DNA of 32,236 nt from Candidatus Stahliibacteriota bacterium. Its GTDB lineage: Bacteria > Hydrothermota > Tepidihabitantia > SM23-42. Position 1 is the first letter of the stretch; each line of letters begins with the position of its first letter. The notes under the pieces were generated by a model. The model saw only the letters and a program-made list of their open reading frames with translations. It did not search any database and was not told the DNA's origin. The position numbers and the translations under genes are program-made. Positions 6,773 through 30,377 of the stretch are shown piece by piece. The stretch spans positions 1 through 32,236 of the forward strand of contig JAUVZL010000033.1 in NCBI GenBank assembly GCA_030602565.1, read 5' to 3'.

Positions 6773-6800
6773 TTGACATCAAGATTAATGTGTATATTAT
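6773..6800 (+). promoter_or_regulatory. Promoter of the DUF6754/Roadblock operon; leaderless start
   Basis: TTGACA (6773-6778), 16-base spacer, TATTAT (6795-6800). Expected start is about 6807, and the chosen ATG is at 6809. No Shine-Dalgarno sequence fits in between. Confidence 0.7.
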
Positions 6801-6808
6801 TATTCGAT

Positions 6809-7978
6809 ATGTTGCTGATTTTAATGCTCATGGTGGGGATAAATGTTGAAGCTTTTGATACACCTAATGAATCTTCTAAAATTTTAAGTAGTTCAGAGCT
6901 ACCTGCTCCTCCAACCGAGGTTTTGGTAAAGGATAAGCCTAATGATGCAGGTGGTAGTATCATTGTTACCTGGGGAAAATCTGCTGATGATGTAGAAGAA
7001 AATGAATTAGTAAAGGAGTATCGAGTATTTCGCTCCGGCGCTCTGGATGGGGAGTTTGAGTTAATCGGAACTGCAAATAAGGGTTTTGAGAAATTTGTTG
7101 ACGGTACGACAATCGACGGCACTCAATATTATTACATGGTGAAAGCATCTGATGGCGTGGTACACTCACAATCAGCAGTAAGTGAAGCAGTCAGCTCAAG
7201 TGCTCAGTGGTTTCATACCGGCAGGATAAGCATGCTCGTGGCTACAGTAATAATTTGCTTCCTTATATTATGGTTTATAGGAAAGGCGAAAAAAGGCGAG
7301 AAACTCTACATCCGTCCAATTGCCGGCTTAGAAGCTGTGGATGATGCAGTGGGAAGGGCAACAGAAATGGGAAAACCAATTATGTACATCCCCGGAATTG
7401 CGGATATGGATGATATTCAGACAATTGCAAGTGTAATTATTCTTGGTAGAGTAGCACGTAAGGCAGCCCAATATGAAACTCCATTATTAGTTCCATGCTG
7501 TAGGTCAATTGTCATGAGTGCGGCTCAAGAAACAGTCAAGGAAGCTTATATCGCTGCAGGAAGATCTGATGCATATGATGCGGATAAGATCAGGTATTTG
7601 ACCGACGACCAGTTTGGCTATGCTGCCGGTGTGGACGGAATGATGCTCAGGGTAAAACCAGGAGCAATTTTCTACATGGGTTGTTTTTATGCTGAGTCTT
7701 TGATTTTGGCAGAAACAGGACATTCTACTGGAGCAATTCAGATTGCCGGGACTGCTATGCCGTCTCAATTACCTTTCTTTATTACGGCATGTGATTACAC
7801 GCTTATTGGAGAAGAGCTTTTTGCGGCAAGTGCATATCTTTCAAGAGAACCTCTGCTCCTTGGAAGTCTCAAAGGACAGGATATGGGAAAGGCAATTTTA
7901 ATTGCTATTCTTATCGGTGGAGTAATTCTGGTAAGTTTGGGATTCACGAAGATAATCGCCTTATTGGCGACCGGATAA
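6809..7978 (+). CDS. DUF6754-like membrane protein with fibronectin type III domain
   Basis: With the start at 6809 the protein has 389 residues. It shows a short N-terminal hydrophobic signal or anchor (1-15) and a fibronectin type III-like domain (about 33-130, with IIVTWGKS, EYRVFRS and QYYYMVKASDG). A membrane segment follows (140-158, then KAKKGEK, suggesting a cytoplasmic side), then a conserved domain of about 200 residues starting YIRPIAGLEAVDDAVGRA. A last hydrophobic segment ends it. I recall this domain as DUF6754; its function is unknown. A longer reading frame opens at 6689, but the promoter overlaps it. An ATG at 6788 is possible but lies within the promoter. First gene of a nine-gene operon, so it may organise the complex. 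Confidence 0.8.
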   Translation: MLLILMLMVGINVEAFDTPNESSKILSSSELPAPPTEVLVKDKPNDAGGSIIVTWGKSADDVEENELVKEYRVFRSGALDGEFELIGTANKGFEKFVDGTTIDGTQYYYMVKASDGVVHSQSAVSEAVSSSAQWFHTGRISMLVATVIICFLILWFIGKAKKGEKLYIRPIAGLEAVDDAVGRATEMGKPIMYIPGIADMDDIQTIASVIILGRVARKAAQYETPLLVPCCRSIVMSAAQETVKEAYIAAGRSDAYDADKIRYLTDDQFGYAAGVDGMMLRVKPGAIFYMGCFYAESLILAETGHSTGAIQIAGTAMPSQLPFFITACDYTLIGEELFAASAYLSREPLLLGSLKGQDMGKAILIAILIGGVILVSLGFTKIIALLATG

Positions 7979-7983
7979 CTATT

Positions 7984-8604
7984 ATGAAAAAAGAGATTCC
8001 ATTACTTATTACATTTATTGCGGGTATGGTGATGATATTGCAGTTTTTTATTCCTCATAGACCGTTTTCTGATTTGCAGCAACTTTTCAATACCTGGTTT
8101 TTAATCATTACTGTTTTTGCAATGATATTGGGTCTTGGGAATCTGTTCAAGGTTCATACGAAACGATTACAGCGCAGACCCAAAGGTTGGTGGTATAGTA
8201 TTGTTTTGCTTGCAGGATTTGCTATTATGTTTACTGTGGGAATGGTATGGGGACCCGCACGCGGTACTCCTTTTGACTATCTCTTTTGGAACGTGCACAT
8301 ACCGATGTCATCGATGATGTTCGCACTCCTTGCTTTTTTTGTAGCATCTGCATCCTATAGAGCATTCAGGGCGCGTACACCTGAAGCAACCTTATTGCTT
8401 GTTTCAGCTATTTTAGTGATGATTGGTCGAGTTCCACTTGGCAATTACATATGGGACAAATTACCTTTAATAGGTGATTGGATCATGAGTTATCCAAATA
8501 TGGCGGGTCAGCGGGCAATCATGATCGGTATAGCCCTTGGTATTGTTTCTACATCACTTAGAATCATACTTGGTATTGAAAGAACATATCTCTCAGGAAA
8601 ATGA
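7984..8604 (+). CDS. Multi-pass membrane protein, unknown function
   Basis: 206 residues with about six hydrophobic segments (roughly 7-25, 37-57, 70-92, 102-123, 133-150, 174-195) and basic loops such as KVHTKRLQRRPKG. I do not recognise the family. It starts 5 bases after the DUF6754-like gene and its stop overlaps the next ATG (ATGA), so it belongs to the same operon and probably the same membrane complex. No catalytic motif is evident. Confidence 0.8.
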   Translation: MKKEIPLLITFIAGMVMILQFFIPHRPFSDLQQLFNTWFLIITVFAMILGLGNLFKVHTKRLQRRPKGWWYSIVLLAGFAIMFTVGMVWGPARGTPFDYLFWNVHIPMSSMMFALLAFFVASASYRAFRARTPEATLLLVSAILVMIGRVPLGNYIWDKLPLIGDWIMSYPNMAGQRAIMIGIALGIVSTSLRIILGIERTYLSGK

Positions 8605-9425
8605 ACATAGTAGAACGTTTAGAAAAATTAGATCGGAGAATAATATTTTTGCTCACCTTACTTGCGGTAGTAATACCACTACTTCTGCCTATTGGTTTTA
8701 AAATCAAGGTCAGCGAACCGGTAAAATTATTTTACGATGCTGTCGAAGCGCTCCCTCCTGGTTCTATGGTGCTCGTATCAAGCGAATATAGTCCATCTAC
8801 AATGCCTGAAGTCTATCCCATGAATCAGGCATTGGCTCGGCACTGTTTTAAGAAGGATATAAAGATTGTCGGAATGGGGCTCTGGCCAGAAGGGATTCCT
8901 CTTAATCAGGCATCAATGGAACAGGCTGCTGAAGAATACGGGAAAGAATATGGTGTCGATTATGTGAACCTTGGCTATAAAGCTGGGGGTATTATTGTCA
9001 TCTCTGCGGCGGCTGAAAACATACCGAATACATTTCCCTTAGATTATGCAGGACGTCCAATAGAAGAATTCGAAATAATGGAGGGGATAAGGAATTTTGA
9101 TAACATCGATCTCATAATCAGCCTTTCAGCCGGTGATCCAGGCGTGAGACACTGGGTGATGATTGCTCAAGGAAGATATGGGAAGAAAGTAGCTGGCGGA
9201 GTTACTGCGGTGAGTGCTCCGGCGTTCTATCCATATTTGAATGCAGGGCAACTTCAAGGATTAATAGGAGGTATGAAAGGAGCAGCCGAGTACGAAACTC
9301 TACTCGAAACAAGTGGCACTGCTACTCGGGGTATGGATGCACAATCAATAGCTCATGGATTGATAATATTTTTAATTCTGTTTGCCAATTTCTTCTATCT
9401 ACTCGGCAAAAGGAGAAAAAAATGA
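8601..9425 (+). CDS. Membrane-anchored protein with large extracytoplasmic domain, unknown function
   Basis: 274 residues. A hydrophobic segment at about 14-34 follows a charged N-terminus (ERLEKLDRR), and a second at about 250-268 ends in GKRRKK. Both ends are therefore predicted cytoplasmic, with a soluble domain of about 210 residues outside. That domain looks alpha/beta (MVLVSSEY, IKIVGMGLWPEG, GIIVISAAAE, DLIISLSAGDPGVRHW). I cannot assign a family or substrate. It overlaps both neighbours by 4 bases (ATGA), indicating coupled translation. Confidence 0.8.
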   Translation: MNIVERLEKLDRRIIFLLTLLAVVIPLLLPIGFKIKVSEPVKLFYDAVEALPPGSMVLVSSEYSPSTMPEVYPMNQALARHCFKKDIKIVGMGLWPEGIPLNQASMEQAAEEYGKEYGVDYVNLGYKAGGIIVISAAAENIPNTFPLDYAGRPIEEFEIMEGIRNFDNIDLIISLSAGDPGVRHWVMIAQGRYGKKVAGGVTAVSAPAFYPYLNAGQLQGLIGGMKGAAEYETLLETSGTATRGMDAQSIAHGLIIFLILFANFFYLLGKRRKK

Positions 9426-10081
9426 TTGAAACCCTCGGCATCTGGATGGCTGCGTTTCTCACCTTATGTATACTCAGTTTTCTCTATAAAGACAACCCCT
9501 TTTACAAATTTGCCGAGCACCTATTTGTGGGCCTGTCTGCAGCGTACTGGGCTGTTTATTACTATTTTAATATCTTGCTACCAAATTTGATACAGCCTCT
9601 TTTTGGACACGGACAACTTCTTTTAATCATTCCTCTCGTGCTTGGAATTATGATGATCATGAGACTGTTTCCAAAAGTAGGTTGGGTGTCTCGCTGGCCC
9701 CTCGCCTTTATCGTAGGTTCTTATTCTGGTTATAACCTGATCACGTATCTTCAGAGTAAAGCATTGGAACAGGTAAGGGCTACGCTTGTTCCATTTATAC
9801 AAATAGAGAGTTGGAAGAATCTGTTTACCAATCCAGGAGTAATGACCTTTCTCAATGCGATTGCAGTTCCGGTAGTAGTAGTTGGGGTCACGACCGGCGT
9901 CATTTATTTCTTCTTTTCTAAGGAACACAAAGGAGTGTTTGGTGGGTTCGCGAGAATAGGTGTGTGGTTTTTGATGATTGCATTCGGTGCTTCATTCGGT
10001 TACACGGTTATGGCACGTATTTCTCTTTTGATTGGCAGAGTATATTTTTTGTTACATGATTGGCTGGGGTTGATACAGTGA
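9422..10081 (+). CDS. Multi-pass membrane protein, unknown function
   Basis: 219 residues with about six hydrophobic segments (near 5-23, 33-55, 66-85, 94-111, 138-163, 173-197), family not recognised. The ribosome-binding site AAAAGGAG precedes the ATG. It overlaps the upstream gene by ATGA and the downstream gene by GTGA. Probably an integral part of the same complex as its neighbours. Confidence 0.8.
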   Translation: MIETLGIWMAAFLTLCILSFLYKDNPFYKFAEHLFVGLSAAYWAVYYYFNILLPNLIQPLFGHGQLLLIIPLVLGIMMIMRLFPKVGWVSRWPLAFIVGSYSGYNLITYLQSKALEQVRATLVPFIQIESWKNLFTNPGVMTFLNAIAVPVVVVGVTTGVIYFFFSKEHKGVFGGFARIGVWFLMIAFGASFGYTVMARISLLIGRVYFLLHDWLGLIQ

Positions 10082-10920
10082 CAGGGTTTGATATAAATCT
10101 GAGAGAATTCTCACTCGGCGATGTATTGCAATTCTTAGCGCGGGTCAAGAAATCAGGTGTCCTTAAGGTTGAAGGCAGTGTATCCGGCGAGATATATTTG
10201 AAAGACGGTTTTGTCACCCATGCCGCAGATGGTTTAGAAAAGGGCATGGAGGCGCTATTAAACCTATCGTTCGTTGATCTTGAGACCGGAAGCTTTGAAC
10301 CCGGTGCTGATGCACCGGAGCAAACAATTTCTGAAGATGTTGGAAAACTGACTGAGAATATCGAGAAAAGGCGCATCGAATTTGAGGCGATTAAGAAAAA
10401 ATTGCCGCCCATGGATACGATATACACCAAATCAACACGCGATCTGGAATCAGCAGTTGCTTTGCGGAGAACAGATTGGCAGATTCTGGCATTGATCAAC
10501 GGAAAACGCCAGTTAGGTGATGTCATTACGCAGTCTAAGATCGGCGGGTATGAAGCCGCCAAGACAGTGACCTGGCTAAGGGAGCAAGGTTTGATATTAG
10601 ACCCAGCTGAAGCTGAGCGTGTCATGTCAAAATTATTGAATTTTCTAAAAATAGTGTTTGAGAATTTTGGCAAGAACGGTTTGAACTGGATGAAGCAGTG
10701 GGCTGAGAATGAGGGGGCAAACAAGAAAGTCATTGAGGCAGTGGATATTAACGAAGCGACTCTTGAAATAAGTCCAGCCGGTGAGCTTACGACTCTTGAA
10801 ATCGAAGAAGGGATTGGGAAATTCTTGAAGTACATTGAGGTTAAAGGACCTAAGCTCTATGGTAAAGTGCTTTTCAAGAAAAAGTGGCAAGGCTTTAAGA
10901 AGAAAACTAAAGTTCAATAG
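10078..10920 (+). CDS. DUF4388 (PATAN-type) domain protein
   Basis: About 280 residues, soluble. The N-terminus, FDINLREFSLGDVLQFLARV then GVLKVEG, GEIYLKDGFVTHA and ALLNLSFVDLETGSFEP, matches my memory of DUF4388/PATAN domains, which occur in bacterial signalling and gliding-motility proteins. A helical region (about 95-180) including WQILALINGKRQLGDVI looks like a winged-helix segment common behind DUF4388. The C-terminus is basic (KKKWQGFKKKTK). Start taken as GTG 10078, giving a GTGA overlap with the upstream stop and GGGG eight bases ahead; an in-frame TTG at 10060 is the alternative. It links the membrane genes to the two Roadblock-like genes. Confidence 0.75.
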   Translation: MTGFDINLREFSLGDVLQFLARVKKSGVLKVEGSVSGEIYLKDGFVTHAADGLEKGMEALLNLSFVDLETGSFEPGADAPEQTISEDVGKLTENIEKRRIEFEAIKKKLPPMDTIYTKSTRDLESAVALRRTDWQILALINGKRQLGDVITQSKIGGYEAAKTVTWLREQGLILDPAEAERVMSKLLNFLKIVFENFGKNGLNWMKQWAENEGANKKVIEAVDINEATLEISPAGELTTLEIEEGIGKFLKYIEVKGPKLYGKVLFKKKWQGFKKKTKVQ

Positions 10921-10928
10921 AATTAGCA

Positions 10929-11570
10929 ATGGAAACCCTTGATAAGATAGAAGAGATTATAAGCTACGCACTGATCAATGCCGAAGACGGTTCTGTTGAC
11001 CAGGAAAAAAGTGCAGGTAATGCTCCAATTGGAGATTTAACTGCCTTTTTCTCCTCGGCCGGCGAGGTAATAAGAGATAGCCTCTCAATGGGCACTATCA
11101 AATGCTTGTCACTGTGTTATGGGGACAACCGCCTGGTAATTTTCCCGCATGAATCCAAATACATCGGGGTTGAGATTGCACGGGGAAAAGAACCAGTTGA
11201 AATAATCAAAAAGATTCTGTCTTCGCTAACTATTGAAGAAAAACCCGAGATTAAACTACCCCGCAGCCTCAGTTCAAAAGTCAAGCAAATCAACCTACTC
11301 GTCGATGAATTCGGTGGTTCTGACAAAAAAGCCCACTGGCTTGAGTTGCTCAAACAAGGTTTAGGCGTCCTCGGTGGTGACATCTTGCCGTTGGTCGGTA
11401 TTATCAATGAGAAATTATCTTTTAAGGACAACCCTATCATGGATAAGGAAGATGATTTTGTACAAGGTTTGCGTTCGATTATTGATTTTCTTGTTAAAAA
11501 GGCAGTTGAAGAAATGGGTTCATCCCAGGCCCGGGCAAAGGTCCAGGCAGTTATTGAAAGGATGAAATAA
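10929..11570 (+). CDS. Roadblock/LC7-like protein with C-terminal helical domain
   Basis: 213 residues, soluble. Residues about 8-90 follow the Roadblock/LC7 pattern: YALINAEDGS, a helix GDLTAFFSSAGEVIRDSL, then IKCLSLCYGDNRLVIFPHESKYIGVEI. Such domains dimerise and regulate small GTPases, as MglB does for MglA. No Ras-like GTPase gene is present in this window. The C-terminal half is helical and unassigned. It lies 8 bases after the DUF4388 gene and 1 base before the next gene. Confidence 0.65.
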   Translation: METLDKIEEIISYALINAEDGSVDQEKSAGNAPIGDLTAFFSSAGEVIRDSLSMGTIKCLSLCYGDNRLVIFPHESKYIGVEIARGKEPVEIIKKILSSLTIEEKPEIKLPRSLSSKVKQINLLVDEFGGSDKKAHWLELLKQGLGVLGGDILPLVGIINEKLSFKDNPIMDKEDDFVQGLRSIIDFLVKKAVEEMGSSQARAKVQAVIERMK

Positions 11571-11571
11571 G

Positions 11572-12234
11572 ATGGCGCAGGAGCTACTCAATAGTTTTGA
11601 AGAGAAGGGTTTGTCTTGTCCGTTCATTGCCTCAAAAACAGGTGACTTAGTCGTCGCATCGAGCGCTGAGTCGATAAAAAACGAAATTGCCCAAATGACA
11701 ACAGTAATTTTTGAAACCATCGGTGCAGTTGGAGATATCGATATCGACAAAATAGAAATCTTGGCTGACTCAAAATGTCTTGTCCTCGCCTTAGATCAAG
11801 AAAATCTCATGGGCAGCCTGTTTGAACAGTCCGAAGACGTAGCAATAGATGACATATGGTCGTCCCTTCAAGAGCTCAAGGAGCAATCAGCAGGCATTGC
11901 AGTTGCTGAAAAGGCGAAGCCCAAAGAGAAGCCTGAGGAAAAGCCCAAAGAGAAGCCTGAGGAAAAGCCCAAAGAAAAGCCTGAGGAAAAACCCAGGGTC
12001 ATAATAGATTCAAGTATTTTGGATAATATGAAAGATGCAATGAAAGATTATCTGGGAGATTTTACAGAGCGTATTTTCAAGAACCAGCTGAAGGCGCAAC
12101 GCATAAAAGTTGAAGAGCTATATGACACTGATGCGCGCCGCTTAGTTTTTGCTCTTGGCAAGGCAGCCGGTATGATTATTGGACCTTCAAAAGGTCGTGA
12201 TATGACTAATAAGTTATTGGAACTACTAAAATGA
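11572..12234 (+). CDS. Second Roadblock/LC7-like protein with PKEKPEE linker
   Basis: 220 residues. The N-terminal domain (about 10-95) again looks Roadblock-like: CPFIASKTGDLVVASS, a helix IAQMTTVIFETIGAV, then KIEILADSKCLVLALDQENLMGSLF. A charged linker of three 8-residue repeats (KPKEKPEE, about 116-139, DNA 11917-11988) leads to a C-terminal helical domain (about 150-220). Paired with the preceding gene, it suggests a Roadblock heterodimer. Assignment rests on pattern only. Confidence 0.65.
   Translation: MAQELLNSFEEKGLSCPFIASKTGDLVVASSAESIKNEIAQMTTVIFETIGAVGDIDIDKIEILADSKCLVLALDQENLMGSLFEQSEDVAIDDIWSSLQELKEQSAGIAVAEKAKPKEKPEEKPKEKPEEKPKEKPEEKPRVIIDSSILDNMKDAMKDYLGDFTERIFKNQLKAQRIKVEELYDTDARRLVFALGKAAGMIIGPSKGRDMTNKLLELLK
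11917..11988 (+). repeat. 24-base coding tandem repeat, three units
   Basis: Three in-frame units AAGCCCAAAGAGAAGCCTGA-GGAA at 11917, 11941 and 11965 encode the KPKEKPEE linker of the Roadblock-like protein. The third unit differs by one base. Confidence 0.9.
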
Positions 12235-12271
12235 GGAAAAAGGCATCGGTTTTTGTTGTAGGAGGAGATAT

Positions 12272-12643
12272 ATGATTCAAAATTTTTTAATTGCAGCACC
12301 ATTCGGAATCGATCCCGGAACTTACCAGACACTCGCCGTAATCCCCAATTACGTTCTAGTGCTGGGAGCAGTGCTGCTGTGGCTTGCCTTCATTGTCTTA
12401 GGCATAATTGCACGTCGTTACGAGATTGTCCTTGGTGAACGGACGAATTGGCAATTCCTGGTCTTTGCACCTACTGGTATTCTTCTCTTCGCCCTTATTC
12501 AGTTGTACTATTGTGGTCTTGGTGGCAAAATGATGTTACCAAAGGGCGGTGTGAATTACGTTGCTTACGGTTTGTTTTTCATTTCGGGTATATTGTCTTT
12601 GATAGCTAATCTAAGGTTTTATGGAGTTACAAAAGGAGGATGA
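12272..12643 (+). CDS. Small membrane protein, three segments, unknown function
   Basis: 123 residues with hydrophobic segments near 25-47, 61-81 and 94-114. Preceded by GGAGGAG at good spacing. Family not recognised. It ends 1 base before the next small membrane protein, and the similar size and topology suggest the two work together. It follows the Roadblock gene by 37 bases without a terminator. Confidence 0.75.
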   Translation: MIQNFLIAAPFGIDPGTYQTLAVIPNYVLVLGAVLLWLAFIVLGIIARRYEIVLGERTNWQFLVFAPTGILLFALIQLYYCGLGGKMMLPKGGVNYVAYGLFFISGILSLIANLRFYGVTKGG

Positions 12644-12644
12644 T

Positions 12645-12995
12645 ATGAGAGCGGATATTCCAGCGGAGATTTTGTTCATTGTAGCAATTTTGTTAACCAT
12701 AGTTTCGTTATTTGTTTTTGGTCTAATAGTCAAGCGTTTATTGGTTCTTATTAAAGGCAAAGGCATCTGGATTTTTCCGATTATCGGCAGTTTATTCCTT
12801 CTGGTTCTTGCTGTCTTCCATGTCTACCGGATGTTATTCTATTTTCCCTTATTAGGCACAGCAGGACCAGCGGATCTCTTCGATTTGATTATCGGATCGC
12901 TTAGTCTATCGCGTATTGAAAGTTTTCTCTTGCTTGGTTCTGGTCTATTTTCCCTTGTTGGAGGCGTGCTTTATTACACGGCAAGTTCCAGGTAA
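12645..12995 (+). CDS. Small membrane protein, three segments, unknown function
   Basis: About 116 residues with hydrophobic segments near 7-30, 40-62 and 91-112. The ATG at 12645 is preferred because AAAAGGAGG lies at ideal spacing inside the end of the previous gene; an in-frame ATG at 12621 would add eight residues. Last gene before the exbB promoter. Family not recognised. Confidence 0.75.
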   Translation: MRADIPAEILFIVAILLTIVSLFVFGLIVKRLLVLIKGKGIWIFPIIGSLFLLVLAVFHVYRMLFYFPLLGTAGPADLFDLIIGSLSLSRIESFLLLGSGLFSLVGGVLYYTASSR

Positions 12996-13013: not shown

Positions 13014-13041
13014 TTGACTTTCTTTTTTTGGTGGTTATAAT
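13014..13041 (+). promoter_or_regulatory. Promoter of the exbB-exbD-exbD-tonB operon
   Basis: TTGACT (13014-13019), 16-base spacer, TATAAT (13036-13041). The predicted start at about 13048 coincides with an ATG that opens a 7-codon frame overlapping the exbB start. The true exbB ATG at 13065 has AAAGGAGG seven bases upstream. Confidence 0.8.
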
Positions 13042-13064: not shown

Positions 13065-13703
13065 ATGCTAAGGGATTTTCAAATGGGTGTAGAAGGTGGC
13101 GGTGGTTTCGTGATGTGGTTTTTGCTTATTTGTGCGGTAATTGGCATCGGTATTATTTTAGAGAGGCTCTACAGCCTTTTTATTAAAGCGAGACTCAATC
13201 CAAAATCCTTCCATGAAAAAATTGTTTCAACTATTGATTCACAGGGCATCGATGCCGGGATCGCACTATGTGATCAGACCGGTGCCCCAGTGGCAAAAAT
13301 CTTGAGGGCAATTTTGGAAAAGGCGGAAAAAGGCAAGGATGCAATGGAAGAGATGGTTTCCCGAAGTGCGGCAAGTGAACTCGCATTTCTTGATCGAGGC
13401 ATGGCTTTGCTCGGTGGTCTTACAACAGTTTCACCTTTTCTCGGGTTCTTGGGTACAGTTATCGGTATGATTACTGCATTTGCTGCGATCGCTATTGCTG
13501 GTGAGGTCGAACCGACCGTTGTTGCCAGTGGTATCTCAACCGCGCTCATTACAACAAAATGGGGGTTGATCATTGCTACACCTCTGGCGATTATTCACAT
13601 TCTATTCTCGACCAGAGTAGATGGATACACCAGGGAAATGGAAGAAGCGGCGAGTTCCCTCATTGATTACTTTATTGAAACATACCCTAAAAGGAAAAAA
13701 TAA
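13065..13703 (+). CDS. exbB: ExbB/TolQ-family proton channel subunit
   Basis: 212 residues. It has an N-terminal membrane segment (about 14-37), a cytoplasmic helical domain, and two further segments carrying the MotA/TolQ/ExbB signature VSPFLGFLGTVIGMITAF (about 123-140) and ALITTKWGLIIATPLAI. With ExbD it converts the proton-motive force into movement of TonB. The order exbB-exbD-exbD-tonB and 1-base overlap with the next gene support ExbB over TolQ. Confidence 0.9.
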   Translation: MLRDFQMGVEGGGGFVMWFLLICAVIGIGIILERLYSLFIKARLNPKSFHEKIVSTIDSQGIDAGIALCDQTGAPVAKILRAILEKAEKGKDAMEEMVSRSAASELAFLDRGMALLGGLTTVSPFLGFLGTVIGMITAFAAIAIAGEVEPTVVASGISTALITTKWGLIIATPLAIIHILFSTRVDGYTREMEEAASSLIDYFIETYPKRKK

Positions 13704-14170
13704 TGCGATTGCGGGAAAAGAAAAAGCATGTACACGGTATCCCGACCGGTTCAATGGGTGATGTTGCGTTTTTGATTCTCCTTTTCTTCTTAGTATCAAC
13801 TGTTTTTACCAAGGATAAAGGTTTAAAAATGCTTTTGCCTGAAAAAACTGCAGATGAAAAAGAAGTGATTGTGGTGCCTAAAAATATTGTAACATTGACA
13901 ATTAATCCGGCCGGTGAAGTAAAAGTCAAAACGATTGGGTATGATGAATACCTTACGATCCAGGAATACGATAGGATTAGAGTTATTATTGAGGAAAGAT
14001 TACTCGAGCGTGATACCCTGCTCGTTGTGTCTTTGCGCGCCAGCAAAGAAGCACCATATGGTAGTATGGTCCATGTCCTCGACCAGATAAAACTTGCCAA
14101 GGTAATGACCGCCGACGATCGGGAACTAAGAGCAAACAAGATTAGTCTCATACCAACGAGTGAGGAATGA
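13703..14170 (+). CDS. exbD: ExbD/TolR-family protein 1
   Basis: 155 residues: short basic cytoplasmic N-terminus, one membrane segment GDVAFLILLFFLVSTVF (about 19-35) with the conserved proton-carrying Asp, then a periplasmic domain of about 115 residues. Overlaps exbB by 1 base (TAATG) and the next exbD by ATGA. It is somewhat longer than its paralogue, mostly in the periplasmic domain. Confidence 0.9.
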   Translation: MRLREKKKHVHGIPTGSMGDVAFLILLFFLVSTVFTKDKGLKMLLPEKTADEKEVIVVPKNIVTLTINPAGEVKVKTIGYDEYLTIQEYDRIRVIIEERLLERDTLLVVSLRASKEAPYGSMVHVLDQIKLAKVMTADDRELRANKISLIPTSEE

Positions 14171-14589
14171 TGAGAAAAAGCATTATTAGAAGAGCCACAA
14201 AAGCACATGAAATACCCACTGCATCAACCGCGGACATTGCATTTCTTCTGATTCTATTCTTCATGGTTACAACAGTCTTTAGACCTACTATCTTGCGCAT
14301 CTTTTATCAGTTGCCAGATGCTGAATCCACCCAGCGAATATTGATGCGTCGCAATGTTAGTTACATCTGGGTGGACAAAGACAGCAAAATATACATTGAT
14401 GATCACGTGGTGAATGTTGACATGATTGCTGGAAAAGTAGGGCCTAAGATTTGGGAAAACCCGGATCTGATTACCATGCTCAATATTGATCAAGGTATTG
14501 CTTATGGCGTGGTTGATGGTATCCTCGATCAATTAAAAGATGCAAAGGCATTTAGGATCACCTTTGCAACAGAATTCAGGAGAGAATAA
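14167..14589 (+). CDS. exbD: ExbD/TolR-family protein 2
   Basis: 140 residues with the same layout: basic N-terminus, membrane segment ADIAFLLILFFMVTTVF with the conserved Asp, and a periplasmic domain. Two consecutive ATGs (14167, 14170) make the start ambiguous by one residue. Two different ExbD proteins with one ExbB suggest an ExbD heterodimer inside the ExbB pentamer; this is inference. Overlaps tonB by 1 base. Confidence 0.88.
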   Translation: MMRKSIIRRATKAHEIPTASTADIAFLLILFFMVTTVFRPTILRIFYQLPDAESTQRILMRRNVSYIWVDKDSKIYIDDHVVNVDMIAGKVGPKIWENPDLITMLNIDQGIAYGVVDGILDQLKDAKAFRITFATEFRRE

Positions 14590-15194
14590 TGCATGATCTT
14601 AAAATGATGTACGGGGTATATCTAAGGGTCGGAATGTTCTCCAGCTTGATAATAGTCATCCTGGTTTTTCTTTTTGTCCCATATGCTGAACCAAAGCCAT
14701 ATAAGCTGAAGGCAGAAGTCATAACCATGGTGGAGGAGATTACGGCTGAGATAGAGAAGTATGAAGAACCGCCGCCAAAAGAACGACCCAAAGTGGCGGT
14801 TGAGGCAGAAAGCGAAGTCATAGAAGAGGCAGTTGAGACTATTGCGACGACCGAGTTTCAGGAAGATCTAATAAGAACAATACCCACTGGGCCGGAGATT
14901 GAGATCGTACCTTATTACAAAGTAGAGGTAAAACCTAAACCGATTTATAACCCGATACCAAAATATCCTGAGCTTGCGAAGCAAGCCGGTATTGAGGGTA
15001 CGACCGTTATCAAAATGCTCGTTGATATTGATGGTACGGTGAGCGAGGTTAAGATCCTGAAGTCAAGTGGCAATCAGATGTTGGATCAAGCTGCGCTTGT
15101 AGCGGCAAAGCAATCCAAATTTACCCCGGCAAAACAGCGGGATAAGTTCGTCCGTGTCTGGGTGTCCAGACCTTTCAGATTCCTGTTGAATTAA
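14589..15194 (+). CDS. tonB: TonB-family energy transducer
   Basis: 201 residues: short cytoplasmic N-terminus, membrane anchor (about 14-32), a Pro/Glu/Lys-rich stretch (EEPPPKERPK, about 59-68) spanning the periplasm, and a C-terminal TonB domain (about 120-201) with YPELAKQAGIEGTTVIKMLV, SSGNQMLDQAALVAAKQSKFTPA and a terminal WVSRPFRF. It would energise the TonB-dependent receptor encoded 1.2 kb downstream. Cotranscribed with exbB and both exbD genes by 1-4 base overlaps. Confidence 0.9.
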   Translation: MHDLKMMYGVYLRVGMFSSLIIVILVFLFVPYAEPKPYKLKAEVITMVEEITAEIEKYEEPPPKERPKVAVEAESEVIEEAVETIATTEFQEDLIRTIPTGPEIEIVPYYKVEVKPKPIYNPIPKYPELAKQAGIEGTTVIKMLVDIDGTVSEVKILKSSGNQMLDQAALVAAKQSKFTPAKQRDKFVRVWVSRPFRFLLN

Positions 15195-15219: not shown

Positions 15220-15247
15220 TTGACAATCAGTATAATTCAGTTATAAT
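15220..15247 (+). promoter_or_regulatory. Promoter of the lipoprotein/receptor operon
   Basis: TTGACA (15220-15225), 16-base spacer, TATAAT (15242-15247), a perfect consensus 25 bases after tonB. Predicted start is about 15254, leaving a leader of about 135 bases before the lipoprotein ATG. Confidence 0.85.
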
Positions 15248-15388: not shown

Positions 15389-16408
15389 ATGAAGAAGAGC
15401 CTTCTTAGCCTCTTGATGATTGTAGGTATATTATTGATTACCTGTGGAAATGAGCCGCCAGAAGAGTTCTACAAGGGAACACCTGAGGATAGTACGGCAA
15501 TCCAATCATTGCTCGATAATAACCCAGAACTACTCATAACTGATGATATGTTTGACACCAACCTGATTGCAATTACCTTACCTAATGTTGAATTCGTTGC
15601 TACAGATAGCTATTTTCGCGTAGATTCAACAATCATCAAACAGCATGTTGACATGTGTGGCTTCAGAGACATCGATAGGAATCTTAATTATGATTTCTGG
15701 TTTGCCAAGGATACCACGTGTACCGTATATCTGAAGGATACATTTTCAGTCTTCTCGTATATGCACTGGGATGAACGGCGTACAGGATATTATTTCTGGG
15801 CAGGTGATACAGAAACAACCCTTGATACAGTTATTATTGACAGCACGGGTGGTACTCATTCATTGGCTTTCACTGGTAATGGCTATCGGATTATTTTCTT
15901 TGACTATGACAGTACCCGTGGTTGGGAACTCAAACGCGTGTCCTATGGAACTTACGACTTCCCGACAGCCGGTACTGAGGTCCCAGCTATAGATAAGGTA
16001 GTTTTGGTGTTTGATGACGGTACACGAGATTCCATAATCGACCATCACCCACAATACGACACGACCTACCCTGGTCATACAATGGCAAGGTTCAGGCATA
16101 TTGATTCGTTATTAGTAATCGATTATGCAGATCTTACTGCTGATAGCATGCTTTTTATACAGACAACACTCGGTTTTGGTCCTATTACCGACACGATGGT
16201 CCAATGGTTTGCATCGATAGGTGGTGAAAATAGAGTCCATCTACCCCGCATTGCTGGCGGCGCTAGTGGCACACTAAAAATAACCGGCTCCGGGATTACC
16301 AATCTCTCTATCGAATGTGTGGTTAGTAAAGGTTACTATTATGTAAAACCTGAAGGTGAATATAAAACAGAAGTGTGGCTCGTACCGGTCAGGATTGGAG
16401 GTTCATAA
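15389..16408 (+). CDS. Lipoprotein, unknown function, upstream of TonB-dependent receptor
   Basis: 339 residues from the ATG at 15389, which has AAAGGAGG at ideal spacing. The signal peptide starts MKKSLLSLLM and ends in a lipobox LITC with the lipidated Cys at residue 19. The mature part is rich in Asp, Thr and Tyr and looks beta-rich. I do not recognise a family. Its stop overlaps the receptor's ATG by 1 base (TAATG), so it is probably a surface or periplasmic partner of the receptor, as SusD-type lipoproteins are; it shows no SusD-like sequence. Confidence 0.8.
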   Translation: MKKSLLSLLMIVGILLITCGNEPPEEFYKGTPEDSTAIQSLLDNNPELLITDDMFDTNLIAITLPNVEFVATDSYFRVDSTIIKQHVDMCGFRDIDRNLNYDFWFAKDTTCTVYLKDTFSVFSYMHWDERRTGYYFWAGDTETTLDTVIIDSTGGTHSLAFTGNGYRIIFFDYDSTRGWELKRVSYGTYDFPTAGTEVPAIDKVVLVFDDGTRDSIIDHHPQYDTTYPGHTMARFRHIDSLLVIDYADLTADSMLFIQTTLGFGPITDTMVQWFASIGGENRVHLPRIAGGASGTLKITGSGITNLSIECVVSKGYYYVKPEGEYKTEVWLVPVRIGGS

Positions 16409-19152
16409 TGAAGAAATTGTTATGCCTTATTTTTATTGGGGCCTTTCTGTTTGCATCTGATTACGGTAGGATATCAGGTCGGGTGACAGATGAGGAGACA
16501 GGTGAGGCTCTGATTGGTGCTGATGTTTATTTGCAGGGTACTGAGCTAGGTGCTGCGACTGATGTCAATGGAGAGTATACGATATTGTATGTGCCGGTTG
16601 GTACGTATCAGGCGGTTGCTGCTTATGTGGGTTATAATGAGTTTACTTATACTCAGGTGATCGTGAATGCTGATCAGACCACGGTGCTCAATTTCAAACT
16701 GCCGCCTACCGTGATTACCATGGAGGCAATTACGTCGGTGGCAGAGCGTCCGATGATCGTGATTTCTGAGACTTCGACGGGTCGTGCAGTGACTTCAGAG
16801 GAGATGAGTCGTTTGCCGATTACGACGATCAACGAGGTCATCACATTGCAGGCGGGTGTTGTGGAAAGTGATTTAGGTACTCATGTACGTGGTGGTCGAG
16901 CCGATGAGATTACGTATTTTGTTGATGGTATTGTAACCAAGGTACCGAATACAGGTTGGCAGTCAGTGCGGGTTAATCCGAATGCAGTGGAAGAGGTTTC
17001 AGTGATCAGTGGTGGTTTTGATGCTGAGTATGGTGATGCGCTTTCTGGTATTATCAATATCCATACGAAGGAAGGTGGTACCAAGCATACCGGGACGTTC
17101 CGATTTATGACTGACGAGGTATTTGGTTCAGGCAACGAGAAATTGAATTTTGGTTACAACCTGTATGATTTCTCATTGGGTGGTCCGCTGCCAGTGTCGC
17201 AGCGTCTGCGTTACTTTGTTTCTGGTGAGGTAATGATGACTGATGCGTTCAGGGAAGCGTATTACAAGGTGCCGTCGCCGCGTATGGACTATCGTGGTCA
17301 GGCGAGGTTTTCCTATCTCTTCCCTGGTGCCAAGGGTAAGGTTACCTTTTCCGGGTTCATGTCCCGTGAACAGTATGTGGATTGGAGCTCGCAGAGTCTG
17401 AAGTATTTTGATATGATTTATATGAGTCGTGTCAAGAACTGGATTGCTTCGGCAACCTTCAATTATATGCTTACGGCTAAGACCTTGACATCGTTAAAGG
17501 TTGGTGCTACGCATTTTGACCGGGTTTATGGTAACCGTGATTATGAATGGGAAGCAGACCCTGATAATAATTGGCAGTGGTATCATGATTACCGGTTCTA
17601 TGCCGAGCATTTGATCGATTATCTGGTAGCTGGTGAGTTACAAGTAAGCCATATTGTGATCGACAGTGTCATGCAGTACCATGAAGAATATCTCAACCGC
17701 GGTCCTTTTGCTTTGCGCAATAGTCCTTATGCGATTGAAGGGTATTTCCGGACCTATGGTGATTATCGGGTCTGGCGTTATTGGAACAATGATGATTATC
17801 AGGGTCGTTTTGACATTACCCATTCAATCGGCAAGGTGCATGAGTTCAAGACCGGTTTGGATTTTATCCAGTACCAGATGCAGTACTATGACAATAATCT
17901 GCCCTGGGTGACCAATCCGTTCTGGGATTTTTATGACCGTGACCCTTACAAGTTTGCGTTCTATATGCAGGACAAGATGGATTTTGAGGGTTTGATCGCC
18001 CGTTTGGGTGTGCGCTTTGATTATTTTGATCCGAAGTCATTTACCTTTGCAAACCCCCAGGATTGGGATGATACGACGACGGTTGATGCTGAGACAAATT
18101 ACAAAATATCGCCGCGTCTTGGTTTTTCTTTGCCGGTTACTGACCGGATGAAGTTCCGTTTCAACTATGGTCAGTATTTCCAGCTGCCCCAGCTCGGTGA
18201 TATGTATGGGACGACTGATACGGCAGTAATCCGTCTTGCCTTGAGTCGTGGTAATACGATTATCGGTAATATCTTGATGAAGCCGCAAAAAACCGTGATG
18301 TATGAGGTCGGTATTGAGAATCAGGTTTCTGACGAGATTGCCTTTGGGTTTACTGCATACTTTAAGGACGTCTATGATCTTTCCCAGATTCGTGAGGTGC
18401 AGGCATTGCCCATGTCTTACTACCAGTACTTCAATGTTGACTACGGTAATATCAAGGGTTTTGAGTTCAACGTGAAGAAGCGGATGTCTGATATGTGGGC
18501 ACTGGCAGTTGTTTACACGCTTCAGTTTGCGCGTGGTACTGGTGCCTGGGCTGGCGAGTGGTATTATGACCACTATGATTATGGCATTGAAGTGCCGGTA
18601 ATTGATTACTGGCTTGATTTTGATGAACGCCATACAGTGAATGCTAATTTTGATCTTGAGTTGCCGAGCAACTTCTTCTTGATCCCGCTTCAGGATTTTT
18701 CCAGTTCCTTTATTCTATCGTTTCATTCAGGTCATCCGTTTACGCCCGAAGACCTCAGGGGTAACAGACTTGGTGATGAGAACTCAGCGCGTATGCCAGG
18801 TTACTGGAATGTCGATTGGAGTTTCAGCCGTCGGGTTAAGCTTGGTCCAGCCAATGTTGTTCTTTCAGGGATGATTTTCAACCTCTTCAATACTGACCAG
18901 GTGATCGATGTTTATGTTACCACGGGACTACCTGATGACCACGGTGATCCTGAACCGACAATTACCCAATTTGTCACCCTACCGATGTTCAGTAATCGTT
19001 ACACGCCGCAGGGTGATTTTAATCATGACGGTTTGATCAGTCCGAGTGAAGCCAAACTTGATTACATGAATGCCCTAAAAGATTACTATACTGACCCACG
19101 TAACCACAATAATGCGTTTAAAGTCAGGTTTGGCATAGGTATTGGGTTCTAA
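16408..19152 (+). CDS. TonB-dependent outer-membrane receptor with N-terminal carboxypeptidase-regulatory-like domain
   Basis: 914 residues from the ATG at 16408; an in-frame GTG at 16375 lies inside the lipoprotein gene. After the signal peptide comes a carboxypeptidase D regulatory-like domain (about 20-105, GRISGRVTDEETGEALIGA, DVNGEYTILYVPVGTY). Next is a plug domain (about 115-225, ITTINEVITLQAG, HVRGGRADEITYFVDGI, GFDAEYGDALSGIINI). A long aromatic-rich barrel ends in IGIGF, the terminal Phe typical of outer-membrane proteins. This is the layout of SusC-like and Cir-like receptors. The substrate is unknown. It would be driven by the upstream ExbB/ExbD/TonB. Confidence 0.92.
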   Translation: MKKLLCLIFIGAFLFASDYGRISGRVTDEETGEALIGADVYLQGTELGAATDVNGEYTILYVPVGTYQAVAAYVGYNEFTYTQVIVNADQTTVLNFKLPPTVITMEAITSVAERPMIVISETSTGRAVTSEEMSRLPITTINEVITLQAGVVESDLGTHVRGGRADEITYFVDGIVTKVPNTGWQSVRVNPNAVEEVSVISGGFDAEYGDALSGIINIHTKEGGTKHTGTFRFMTDEVFGSGNEKLNFGYNLYDFSLGGPLPVSQRLRYFVSGEVMMTDAFREAYYKVPSPRMDYRGQARFSYLFPGAKGKVTFSGFMSREQYVDWSSQSLKYFDMIYMSRVKNWIASATFNYMLTAKTLTSLKVGATHFDRVYGNRDYEWEADPDNNWQWYHDYRFYAEHLIDYLVAGELQVSHIVIDSVMQYHEEYLNRGPFALRNSPYAIEGYFRTYGDYRVWRYWNNDDYQGRFDITHSIGKVHEFKTGLDFIQYQMQYYDNNLPWVTNPFWDFYDRDPYKFAFYMQDKMDFEGLIARLGVRFDYFDPKSFTFANPQDWDDTTTVDAETNYKISPRLGFSLPVTDRMKFRFNYGQYFQLPQLGDMYGTTDTAVIRLALSRGNTIIGNILMKPQKTVMYEVGIENQVSDEIAFGFTAYFKDVYDLSQIREVQALPMSYYQYFNVDYGNIKGFEFNVKKRMSDMWALAVVYTLQFARGTGAWAGEWYYDHYDYGIEVPVIDYWLDFDERHTVNANFDLELPSNFFLIPLQDFSSSFILSFHSGHPFTPEDLRGNRLGDENSARMPGYWNVDWSFSRRVKLGPANVVLSGMIFNLFNTDQVIDVYVTTGLPDDHGDPEPTITQFVTLPMFSNRYTPQGDFNHDGLISPSEAKLDYMNALKDYYTDPRNHNNAFKVRFGIGIGF

Positions 19153-19168: not shown

Positions 19169-22100
19169 ATGAAAAAGCTTATACTACCATTACTCTTGAT
19201 CACGGTTTTTGCTTTCGGCAAAACCGCAGTGCCGATTCAGCCAGGTCGCCCTGCCGAGATAAAGACCCACAATATCAATCAGGTTGAGATGTGTGTGAGC
19301 AATTATGGCAAATTCGGTCAAACTGAAGGCGGTGATGCTGGCTGCTGGTGGCCGGTTGGTTCTGAGCATGGCTACATATACGGCGCTGGTCCCTGGTTTG
19401 GTACAATCATTGACGACGATACACTCGTTACGATTGGTTATGGACCCCACGGCGGTGAGGCTGAGTACGTGCCCGGGTTAGGTGGTATGTCACAGAGCGC
19501 GGCTGAAGCGGTTATCTACATGTACCCAACACTCTGGCCGCCACCCCAGGATATATTTTCCATGGCACCACAGGATAACAAATCACATCAGGATTCCTGG
19601 TGCGCTTACAATGACCTTGATGAGAATGCTCATGTTCCAGGTGATACCAGACCAATTGGTCTTGAAGTTTACCAGACTGTTTATGCCTGGAACTTGAGCA
19701 CGACAGCAGATATCATCTTTATTCGCTACGAGTTGAAAAATATCACAGCACAGATCGAAGATCTAGGGCGAACCCTTACTGAGGTCTATTTTGGTGTGGC
19801 TACTGATAATGATATCGGTAATGAATCAGGTACTGCCGCTAATGATATAATCAGTGGTATTGTAGGGCAGTGGTATGTGATCGAGGGTGAATCACTCTGG
19901 GTTGATGACCTTGGCTATCAATGGCAGAATGTAATTGAACCAACTCCAGCACCGCCCTGGTGGCCAGGTGCTATTGGTTTTGATTATCTGCAGAGTCCCT
20001 GGGATTTACCGGATTCACCAGACCCGTTTGTAGACAAGGATGGTGATGGTATTAATGACTATTATGAGCGGGACAGTGTGTGGTTTTGGACTTATCATCC
20101 GCCGCCTGATCCTTTGTATGATGCTGACTGTGATGGTACGCCAGATTGGTGTGACCCATCACAAATCCCCCAGCTTGGCATGACTGCATTTAAGCGCTTT
20201 ACCTTGAACCTTGAGCCAAACCTTGATAATGAACGTTATATTACCTTAGCCGGGTACAACTTCAAGACTATGGTTTACGAGCCATATGATACAGTGCCGC
20301 CTTTACCTGATGACCAGCGTTTCCTGCAGTGCAGTGGTCCATTTGAACTGATGCCTGAATCGACCGTTGTTGTGCTCGTGGGCGTGATCTTTGCAGATTG
20401 GGATTGTTCTCTGCAAGAACGACCAGACTCAGCACTTGCGCCGGTAGATGCTACTTGTCAGTTCGTTTATGATATGAACTGGTTATTACCGGGTCCGCCT
20501 GCGCCGCCGACCTTGACCTGTATACCGGGTGATGCTCAGATAACATTGGTCTGGGATAGTAAGCCGGAGTATGATCCTGACCCGTATTGGCTCGTAGTGA
20601 GTGATCCGCTAAATCCGAACTTATATGATCCTTATTATCGTCAGTATGATTTTGAGGGTTATCGGATATGGCGCAGCCAAACTGGTCAAACTGGGACCTG
20701 GGAACGTCTGGGAGTTTGTGATCTGTATAATGGTATTACCTTTGAGTGGATAGCTGCGGATGGGAGTGATACATTGCGTGCTGAGGATACCGGGATTATT
20801 CATTCGTTCTTAGATGATGGGGTGCGTAATGGGTTTACTTATTACTATGCAGTGACTTCGTTTGACTACAACTGGGTTACATCTACTTATGATTCGATAT
20901 GGGTTATCGACTCGATCTGGTATGTTGATACTATTCCTGAACCTGATGAAAGCACCTTTGTTTATGTTTACGATACGCTTGAGGTTACTGGTCCGCGTGC
21001 CCTGGCTTTTGAGAGTGGTCAAGTTGGTATACAGTCTGCGCCGCGTCGTGATCCAGCCAATTTTGTACCCGGGATATGTTCATTAGAGCTGATTTCTGGT
21101 AACGAGTTATTAGGGGACAACATTGTTTTGGACATACCGTATCCTCTGGCGATGACGTCGTCTGATATGTATCTGGATTATCTTGATGTGGTCTATGATT
21201 CAGCGACGTACAGTGGTTTATATTCGGTCTATTTGCGTGATACTAATGGTTTGGCTGTGGACAGTGTATTTGCGGTAGTGGGTAACAATGAGGTTGTGAT
21301 TACGCATGCGTTTTCTATGTTGCATGGGGTTACGGTTGAGGCTAATTTAGTGTTTGATTCAATACCGGCCGACGAGTCGATATTCAAGGAGATCAAACAA
21401 GAGTCGGGTAGTACGTATCCGGAGAGTTTGATTGTGGCGTCAATGCCTAGTGCGTGGGCGAGTTATTTTGCTTTTTGGGCGTACCGTGGTAATGATTATC
21501 AGATCGAGTGGTATTCAACGACGAATCATCCAACGAATGCGAACAGTGTCAGGGTATTTGATTTGATGACTGGTGAGGAGATACCGTACCGTGCGTATGA
21601 TCCGGAGACGAGTCATGCTAATGATAGTTTAGCTAATGGTTGGTGTTTTCTGTCGCTTCGGGATGTCTCAGATACCTTGGTTTTGAATGGTTCGCCGTGG
21701 ACCCAGTATAATACCAAGTTCCTATACATTAACAGTGGTTTAGTGGGAATGAACAGGAATGGTCCGATGTTGCCGACTGGTCCGGTTCCTTCGACGAGTG
21801 ATGAGTGGTTAGCCGTGGCGCGTGAGGAGTTTACGCCGGCGCCGTTGAGTGCGTCGTTTGAGATCCACAGTACGCCCGCGTATTTTGATACGGTAACGCA
21901 GCTTGAGGCGTTCAATGTGAAGGTGGTGCCGAATCCGTATCTTCTTCATAACGAGTGGCAGACATCGTTTAGGCGGCGTCGGTTAAAGTTCATCAATTTA
22001 CCGTCGGATTGTACGATCCGGATCTTCAATTTGAATGGTGAATTAGTGAAGACCTTGTTACACCATCATACCTTAGAGCCTATTGAAGGTCAGCAAAAAG

Positions 22101-22237
22101 TTACAAACAGTGCTGGTGGTGACCAGTGGTGGGATCTCTTGAGTGAAAACCGTCAGTTAGTCTCGAGTGGTATCTACATTTTCCATATCCAGTCTGCAGT
22201 AGGTGAACAAGTCGGCAAGTTTGTGGTAATCCGATAA
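19169..22237 (+). CDS. Large secreted protein with Ca-binding-type repeats and type IX-like sorting tail
   Basis: 1022 residues. Signal peptide 1-18 (LLLITVFAFG). A region near 290-325 has two Asp-rich segments, DKDGDGINDYYE and DADCDGTPDWCD, like calcium-binding thrombospondin type 3 repeats. A fibronectin type III-like stretch lies around 445-570 (PPTLTCIPGDAQITLVWD, FTYYYAVTSFDYN). The C-terminus VVPNPYLL... RIFNLNGELVKTL... SSGIYIFHIQS... GKFVVIR has the pattern of a sorting tail or FlgD-like Ig fold. Likely exported to the cell surface. AGGAGG precedes the ATG, 17 bases after the receptor, within the same operon. Confidence 0.82.
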   Translation: MKKLILPLLLITVFAFGKTAVPIQPGRPAEIKTHNINQVEMCVSNYGKFGQTEGGDAGCWWPVGSEHGYIYGAGPWFGTIIDDDTLVTIGYGPHGGEAEYVPGLGGMSQSAAEAVIYMYPTLWPPPQDIFSMAPQDNKSHQDSWCAYNDLDENAHVPGDTRPIGLEVYQTVYAWNLSTTADIIFIRYELKNITAQIEDLGRTLTEVYFGVATDNDIGNESGTAANDIISGIVGQWYVIEGESLWVDDLGYQWQNVIEPTPAPPWWPGAIGFDYLQSPWDLPDSPDPFVDKDGDGINDYYERDSVWFWTYHPPPDPLYDADCDGTPDWCDPSQIPQLGMTAFKRFTLNLEPNLDNERYITLAGYNFKTMVYEPYDTVPPLPDDQRFLQCSGPFELMPESTVVVLVGVIFADWDCSLQERPDSALAPVDATCQFVYDMNWLLPGPPAPPTLTCIPGDAQITLVWDSKPEYDPDPYWLVVSDPLNPNLYDPYYRQYDFEGYRIWRSQTGQTGTWERLGVCDLYNGITFEWIAADGSDTLRAEDTGIIHSFLDDGVRNGFTYYYAVTSFDYNWVTSTYDSIWVIDSIWYVDTIPEPDESTFVYVYDTLEVTGPRALAFESGQVGIQSAPRRDPANFVPGICSLELISGNELLGDNIVLDIPYPLAMTSSDMYLDYLDVVYDSATYSGLYSVYLRDTNGLAVDSVFAVVGNNEVVITHAFSMLHGVTVEANLVFDSIPADESIFKEIKQESGSTYPESLIVASMPSAWASYFAFWAYRGNDYQIEWYSTTNHPTNANSVRVFDLMTGEEIPYRAYDPETSHANDSLANGWCFLSLRDVSDTLVLNGSPWTQYNTKFLYINSGLVGMNRNGPMLPTGPVPSTSDEWLAVAREEFTPAPLSASFEIHSTPAYFDTVTQLEAFNVKVVPNPYLLHNEWQTSFRRRRLKFINLPSDCTIRIFNLNGELVKTLLHHHTLEPIEGQQKVTNSAGGDQWWDLLSENRQLVSSGIYIFHIQSAVGEQVGKFVVIR

Positions 22238-26064: not shown

Positions 26065-26081
26065 CAGAAAAAGGAGGAATA

Positions 26082-27896: not shown

Positions 27897-27921
27897 AGAT
27901 ACTTCATTTTGTCATTGTGTT

Positions 27922-27953
27922 AAAGGGGCAGGTTCAGCCTGCCCCTTTTCTTT
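27922..27953 (+). terminator. Rho-independent terminator after the BNR protein gene
   Basis: AAAGGGGCAGG / TTCAG / CCTGCCCCTTT forms an 11-bp perfect stem followed by a T-rich stretch (TTCTTT). Confidence 0.9.
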
Positions 27954-28202
27954 AATGTTCGAGCTTGTCGAGAACACACATTAAGGAATACGTTGAATGA
28001 TTAACTCCGTATTCGTAATTCGTTTTTCGTGTTCGTAATATAAGTGTAGTTGCCCGATTCATCCCGCCCTTTTACAAAAGAGCTGGATTCATCGGGCATT
28101 GTCTGATAAATCACCTGTCTGCGTGCGACGCACAGGCAGAGACGACTACATACTAACTCCGATACACCATTACTCCCTTACTCCAATACGCAGTTATGCT
28201 CT
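27954..28202. other. Intergenic stretch with small palindromes
   Basis: No gene seen. GTTCGAGCTTGTCGAGAAC (27958-27976) and an imperfect hairpin around GTGCG/A/CGCAC (28115-28139) look like dispersed intergenic palindromes. It separates convergent genes. No clear terminator for the minus-strand glycosyltransferase gene could be identified. Confidence 0.4.
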
Positions 28203-30002: not shown

Positions 30003-30074
30003 CACGTTTCCTTTCTTGTCCTCCATAATACTCGGCGGACAGTTCTCCTTGAAAGGCTATTAGTACACGGACAG

Positions 30075-30102
30075 ATTATATACAGTATGTCCAAAGGGTC
30101 AA
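30075..30102 (-). promoter_or_regulatory. Promoter of the glycosyltransferase gene
   Basis: Minus strand TTGACC (30097-30102), 16-base spacer, TATAAT (30075-30080). Predicted start is near 30068, giving a leader of about 65 bases. Confidence 0.75.
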
Positions 30103-30329: not shown

Positions 30330-30358
30330 TTGACAATCGATTACATATAGGCTATGAT
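30330..30358 (+). promoter_or_regulatory. Promoter of the second BNR protein gene
   Basis: TTGACA (30330-30335), 17-base spacer, TATGAT (30353-30358). About 13 bases of leader carry AAAGGAGG before the ATG at 30378. Confidence 0.8.
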
Positions 30359-30377
30359 ATGCTGAAAAGGAGGACTG

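Follow-up and report, generated by a model that had tools for sequence, protein, structure and literature searches.

What machine do nine same-strand genes (A-I, positions 6809-12995) encode in contig JAUVZL010000033.1 of a Candidatus Stahliibacteriota bacterium, and where does the unit to which they belong end? The window that we analysed is the whole 32,236-nucleotide stretch, which is contig 58 of the source assembly (2.74 Mb in 104 contigs; genome label G000). An initial annotation had read the nine genes as one unnamed envelope machine with a cytoplasmic regulatory module. A membrane module and a Roadblock/DUF4388 unit are encoded, but the distribution of the genes and a block swap at the D/E junction indicate that they are not a single nine-gene unit. 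The locus has two layers: ABCD is a self-contained four-gene module that is universal in the class of the source organism, and E-I is a lineage-specific five-gene add-on. Genes A-I are as described and form a real operon that is conserved in candidate division WOR-3; the functional unit extends past 12995, downstream to tonB, a receptor, PorV-family and sorting-domain proteins, and in trans to the genes S, M (MutL-type) and P. The best explanation, to which we give a probability of roughly 40%, is an inner-membrane machine that would serve outer-membrane export or uptake and would carry a Roadblock/DUF4388 control unit.

The ABCD module and the D/E junction

Gene A (6809..7978; all nine genes lie on the + strand) encodes an Fn3 domain, a transmembrane (TM) segment, a DUF6754 domain and a C-terminal TM segment. 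Its frame is open from 6689, and the most sensible start is ATG 6809, nine bases past the end of a near-consensus -10 box. The description of A as a fibronectin-DUF6754 protein was confirmed, with a match to DUF6754 (PF20539) at 5e-123 (409.6 bits versus the Pfam cut-off of 27) and an Fn3 domain backed by its fold (AlphaFold model and Foldseek). B (7984..8604) is a six-TM membrane protein, C (8601..9425) has a large, putatively extracytoplasmic region between two TM segments, and D (9422..10081) is a multi-TM protein. Hydropathy gave TM counts of 2 for A, 6 for B, 2 for C, at least 4 for D and 3 each for H and I, in line with the membrane proteins annotated before, and none for E, F and G. The Pfam search placed B, C, D, F, G, H and I in no family over its cut-off. 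In the open reading frame (ORF) list the genes are spaced by 5 (A/B), 8 (E/F), 1 (F/G), 37 (G/H) and 1 (H/I) bases and overlap by 4 bases at B/C, C/D and D/E, so that the gaps of 1-37 bases and the three overlaps were as annotated. The nearest named loci are in candidate division WOR-3 / Candidatus Stahlbacteria genomes, with 81-89% identity in A.

DUF6754 was found in all 61 genomes tested of the class, at 1-7 copies each, often in tandem and in some as three successive ABCD units, and in 0 of 14 well-known control genomes. The source genome has four copies; in two besides that of the window, homologues of B, C and D come next in this order too, and the fourth is truncated by a contig end. 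A scan of 84,980 genomes gave more than 560 DUF6754 relatives, the best 80 of which belong to WOR-3, Latescibacterota, Zixibacteria, Coatesbacteria, Fermentibacteria, Aegiribacteria, Eisenbacteria, Edwardsbacteria, Cloacimonadota and others. Of the 139 A copies with enough flanking sequence, 120 show A-B-C-D in direct order; many of the others stop at a contig end, have fragmented or shifted frames or contain one inserted ORF. The module is thus present in every searched genome of one class and across about ten uncultured candidate phyla of the Bacteroidota (FCB) superphylum, yet no described member was found; DUF6754 is not mentioned in the 5.4 million full texts searched.

In regards to E-I, gene F was present in 27 of the 28 genomes examined in three families (f1-f3) and in none of the 33 that represent six further families of the class. 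At least 12 genomes, from three families and two orders, have the full A-I order (the window, G007, G009, G012, G013, G018-G020, G023, G025-G027; the G023 string has one extra small ORF called inside), and partial strings occurred in G005, G008, G010, G011, G017 and G022. One genome with the complete order (G027) is a member of another order of the class. These results indicate that the order is kept beyond close relatives, as the initial annotation required of its reading, and far beyond chance.

The two layers separate at the D/E junction. Between G007 and G018, which belong to one genus, the E-I and exbB-tonB proteins are 63-94% identical and the A-D proteins only 45-55%. The A-D proteins of G018 match those of G013, from another genus, at 70-81%, and the E-I proteins of G013 match those of the window at 61-91%; the identity break falls at the D/E junction. 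Because the identity of A-D switches as a block while E-I and exbB-tonB stay orthologous, ABCD seems to be exchanged as a whole, and E-I, a unit too, seems to accept either version. The window's A groups with Latescibacterota copies behind P or S-M-P (support 0.93). This pattern suggests that an ABCD cassette was exchanged horizontally, and loss of paralogues might also produce it. The swap would be a natural experiment marking the boundary between engine and regulator. As a separate matter, the tandem position of ABCD (first, second or third) looked tree-like by eye; because the agreement of the bipartitions was poor (best Jaccard 0.37-0.59), we do not claim ancient position-specific types.

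Hydropathy and the positive-inside pattern would place the Fn3 domain of A and the large domain of C outside and the DUF6754 domain inside. The DUF6754 domain is the best-conserved part of A, and its many invariant polar residues are compatible with a binding or catalytic site. Invariant charged residues lie in or beside membrane segments of B (R126, R129) and D (E32, near the first membrane segments, R81 and R91) and appear compatible with a transport or energy-coupling core. When profiles of A, C, F and G were searched against PDB sequences, only Fn3 came up as a useful relative. Homology between the alpha/beta domains of A and C was considered and rejected; hhalign of deep alignments gave a short membrane-segment match only, with a probability of 2.9%.

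The E-I genes and the Roadblock question

Gene E (10078..10920) starts at GTG 10078, inside the 4-base D/E overlap. Its annotation as a DUF4388 protein was upheld by a match to PF14332 at 8e-12, over the Pfam cut-off, and 8 of 8 E orthologues match the same family; E also has a C-terminal extension. The literature search found DUF4388 in a single paper. H (12272..12643) and I (12645..12995) each encode a three-TM protein.

F (10929..11570) and G (11572..12234) had both been called Roadblock-like, which holds for F by predicted fold and for neither by profile. No Roadblock profile recognised F or G, and neither reached threshold (F was tested against the PF03259 cut-off). Comparison by hhalign of F and of G with two local Roadblock families from the same genomes was negative; as a positive control, the same method did join those two families (83%, E 9e-6). 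The AlphaFold model of F (five sequences, mean predicted local distance difference test score 78) has the Roadblock strand/helix order alpha-beta-beta-alpha-beta-beta-beta-alpha. The PDB matches listed by Foldseek for this model were overwhelmingly Roadblock/LC7 proteins or complexes holding them (prob 1.00, best E 1.8e-4) and included Asgard Roadblock, Ragulator subunits, Streptomyces Roadblock, dynein light chain, MglB and MglC. Because the strand/helix order and the structural matches agree, F is predicted to be a Roadblock fold far diverged in sequence, joined to a C-terminal helical domain. G is a soluble two-domain protein whose strand/helix pattern resembles Roadblock by eye only. The linker of G is variable; in the window it contains repeated KPKEKPEE-coding units (11917-11990), which are missing from most orthologues. 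A C-terminal domain shared by E, F and G gave no signal in pairwise comparisons.

No Ras-like GTPase is encoded within operon A-I according to the ORF list and Pfam, as first annotated, and a search elsewhere in the genome found two unlinked MglA-like GTPases, at G000:C47, where the gene adjoins an MglB-like Roadblock gene, and at G000:C2. In G007, an MglA-like GTPase gene (L202:10605-11201) lies about 8 kb past the operon's receptor gene. In Myxococcus xanthus, the Roadblock protein MglB is the GTPase-activating protein of MglA (PMC9481161). The locus resembles the MglA-MglB module in the predicted fold of F and in the MglA/MglB-like genes elsewhere in the genome. It differs in that the operon has no GTPase and F lies below profile detection, has an extra C-terminal domain and is placed in a membrane-complex operon. 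F would be a bacterial example of a Roadblock protein built into the operon of a membrane machine and not placed beside its GTPase.

These genes raise the possibility of a motility or polarity machine, in which E-F-G would be effectors of the unlinked MglA/MglB switch and ABCD with ExbBD would generate force for gliding or for polar placement of surface proteins. MglB and MglC among the structural matches of F, the two MglA-like GTPases and the MglB-like gene agree with it, as does the power that type IX motors also supply to gliding in Flavobacterium (PMC8986121). We consider this explanation unlikely, however: the operon lacks a GTPase, F is not detectably near MglB by profile, and ABCD is universal even where E-I is absent.

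The TonB motor, the type IX route and the S, M and P genes

Directly downstream of I on the + strand are genes for an ExbB/TolQ-family protein (13065..13703; TolQ 2e-23 and ExbB 9e-17, both under the equivalog cut-offs), two ExbD/TolR-family proteins (13703..14170 and 14167..14589, family-level matches) and a TonB-family protein (14589..15194; TIGR01352 73 bits, cut-off 27.1). A TonB C-terminal domain therefore occurs together with ExbB/ExbD at the locus, as a TonB system demands. The gene string exbB-exbD-exbD-tonB follows I in at least 9 genomes of families f1-f3, so that the functional neighbour proposed at first is conserved and not there by chance. The likeness to ExbB-ExbD-TonB/Tol systems consists of adjoining genes, conserved order and family-level matches. 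Standard Ton/Tol systems are not known to have a DUF6754 quartet, DUF4388 protein or Roadblock protein. In Fermentibacteria/Aegiribacteria, a TonB-dependent receptor gene and then exbB-exbD-tonB come after S-M-P-ABCD. Four Zixibacteria loci have exbB-exbD-tonB-type genes next to P and M, oriented divergently from ABCD. The same ExbB/ExbD/TonB partner thus comes after ABCD in Fermentibacteria/Aegiribacteria and after A-I in WOR-3 families f1-f3, and with the Zixibacteria layout the linkage of ABCD to a Ton/Tol-type motor occurs in several arrangements.

The genes could instead be co-regulated neighbours only, with ABCD, E-I and the TonB/type IX genes as separate systems expressed together as an envelope regulon. 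A single promoter had been annotated; a site just 5' of A (TTGACA-16-TATTAT, 6773..6800, +) does have 11/12 matches, to the consensus only, but a second site with 11/12 matches precedes exbB (TTGACT-16-TATAAT, 13014..13041, +), and promoter-like sites in the window are only modestly over the shuffled background (29 found versus 20.3 +/- 4.1 expected). The second site would suit a regulon, as would the ABCD copies found alone and the F-G, E-F and E-G comparisons without a shared domain. The 4-base D/E overlap, the retention of E-I beside a replaced ABCD and the independent ABCD-TonB linkage in other phyla argue against it, and we regard it as rather unlikely.

Further downstream, all on the + strand, are genes for a conserved protein of about 340 residues without a family match (15389..16408; orthologues in L204 and L205), a TonB-dependent receptor (16408..19152; CarboxypepD_reg, plug and beta-barrel), a 1022-residue exported protein with a weak sorting-domain-like end (19169..22237; TIGR04183 0.0066, below cut-off), a PorV/PorQ-family outer-membrane protein (22248..23366; NF033709 208 bits, cut-off 90), a type IX sorting-domain protein with LVIVD repeats and a C39-like part (23443..26064; TIGR04183 36.6 bits, cut-off 23) and another type IX sorting-domain protein (26082..27896; 39.1 bits, cut-off 23). 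The block through 27896 is kept in relatives: G011 and G025 have the string of the window, from the ~340-residue protein through the receptor, an exported protein of about 1000 residues and the PorV-family protein to two sorting-domain homologues, and the same string was read as far as PorV in G018.

All 31 class members searched were found to encode the SprA translocon, as were 19 of 20 genomes from other phyla that carry ABCD (50 of 51 in total), and the SprA/Sov protein of the source genome scored 313 bits (cut-off 200). GldM was detected in 0 of the 31 class members and 0 of the 20 other genomes, in a search that had no true positive control but found SprA there by the same method; of the GldL-GldM motor, the search covered GldM. 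A review describes PorL/PorM (GldL/GldM) as the inner-membrane motor of type IX secretion, and its list of components includes neither ABCD nor E-I (PMC7463736). Since SprA is present, GldM was not detected and GldL/GldM is the known motor, ABCD with ExbBD may occupy the place that GldLM has in Bacteroidota. The locus thus resembles type IX secretion in SprA, in the PorV-family and sorting-domain proteins of the same conserved superoperon and in an ExbB/ExbD-type inner-membrane motor, and differs from it in that GldM was not detected and in the ABCD and E-I genes. In its most specific form, the proposal is that ABCD, joined by S, P and the MutL-type ATPase and coupled to ExbBD/TonB, would be the engine in the inner membrane that powers SprA/PorV type IX-like export in the many FCB phyla lacking GldLM, and that in WOR-3 the Roadblock/DUF4388 unit would gate this engine under a Ras-like GTPase. 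We hold this form to be quite unlikely because co-occurrence inside one superphylum is weak evidence; SprA has been described as FCB-specific (PMC12611786). If ABCD did energise or gate outer-membrane export, it would explain what powers SprA in phyla other than Bacteroidota, in which the known motor went undetected. In G029 (L195:8110-17161), SprA, a MazG-like gene and ABCD stand in a row, with ABCD 0.5 kb downstream of SprA; a MazG-like gene also precedes other ABCD copies.

Neighbour clustering identified M, a MutL-family ATPase, and P, an unannotated protein of about 375 residues with a barrel-like N terminus (by inspection), as the commonest ABCD neighbours outside WOR-3. S, a protein of about 110 residues, usually stands alongside them in the order S-M-P-ABCD. 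There are 28 A copies directly behind P or divergent from M, in Latescibacterota, Zixibacteria, Coatesbacteria and Fermentibacteria/Aegiribacteria. M and P are fused in a single 950-residue protein in G028 (L139:6760-9612), and single-frame matches suggest further fusions in several other genomes. Within the class, P was found in 60 of 61 genomes and M in 29 of 31; in WOR-3 the three genes are present yet unlinked to ABCD, with S-M at G000:C93 and P at G000:C97. M matches PF13941 at 7e-125 across the whole profile, as the GlmL/MutL accessory ATPases of glutamate mutase do. It differs from them in a C-terminal extension, in its partners P, S and ABCD and in the absence of a mutase among the genes seen, and it reached 221.9 bits against the GlmL equivalog NF040745, far under the cut-off of 475; M is therefore not to be called a glutamate-mutase protein.

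A metabolic or cofactor role, in which ABCD and the MutL-type ATPase would be linked to a radical, B12 or lipoyl enzyme whose cofactor the TonB genes import, would account for the family that M shares with GlmL and for some of its neighbours. The S and MutL-type genes lie directly 3' of a glycine decarboxylase subunit gene in WOR-3 (L131:7703-11200), similar genes precede S-M in Fermentibacteria, and the WOR-3 P gene is near an AccA-like gene. The score of M below the GlmL cut-off with no mutase nearby, the generic architecture of the downstream receptor and the PorV and cargo genes, which do not fit, make this role very unlikely. The WOR-3 P gene is followed by genes for an outer-membrane-like protein, the AccA-like carboxyltransferase and a second DUF4388-type protein (L174:2955-6503, L185:5208-8601).

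For the inner-membrane machine that we favour, the conservation, the linkage, the predicted fold of F and the presence of SprA, PorV and cargo genes are the observations from which we infer each step of a mechanism. A, B, C and D, which are co-linear and exchanged as a block, would form one inner-membrane complex. A would expose its Fn3 domain outside and keep the invariant DUF6754 alpha/beta domain inside, C would have its large domain outside, and B and D would be the membrane core. Across the superphylum, this complex would work with a cytoplasmic set made up of S, the barrel protein P and M, a MutL-type ATPase with an actin fold. The machine would sense or use energy from the cytoplasm (M/P, ion gradient), and changes in the complex that are driven by ATP, by ions or by both could reach through the periplasm to outer-membrane transport, alongside the ExbB/ExbD/TonB motor. 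In the WOR-3 lineage, the cytoplasmic face may have gained a control unit of the DUF4388 protein E and the Roadblock protein F, probably also G. H and I would anchor or relay this unit, and it may sense the state of an unlinked MglA-type GTPase. The likeliest clients would be the TonB-dependent receptor and the type IX route through PorV and SprA, partly encoded just downstream.

Several points weigh against this explanation. The evidence from neighbouring genes is mostly gene order. Many organisms carry ABCD without E-I, which indicates that the Roadblock unit is not essential to ABCD, and many ABCD copies have no TonB, PorV or S-M-P neighbour. In G020 and G005, exbB is not directly after H/I. 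The co-occurrence of SprA and ABCD may reflect only common descent in the superphylum. Moreover, Foldseek with the DUF6754 model gave Fn3 matches only and no structural match outside Fn3, and model confidence was low in part of the DUF6754 domain.

In the downstream part of the window, a perfect 12/12 match to a sigma-70-type promoter at 15220-15247 precedes the gene for the ~340-residue protein and the TonB-dependent receptor gene. Three proteins with type IX C-terminal sorting domains are encoded within 23443-32130, and a gene on the minus strand (28203-30026), between two sorting-domain genes, encodes a membrane glycosyltransferase-like (PMT_2) protein with TPR repeats.

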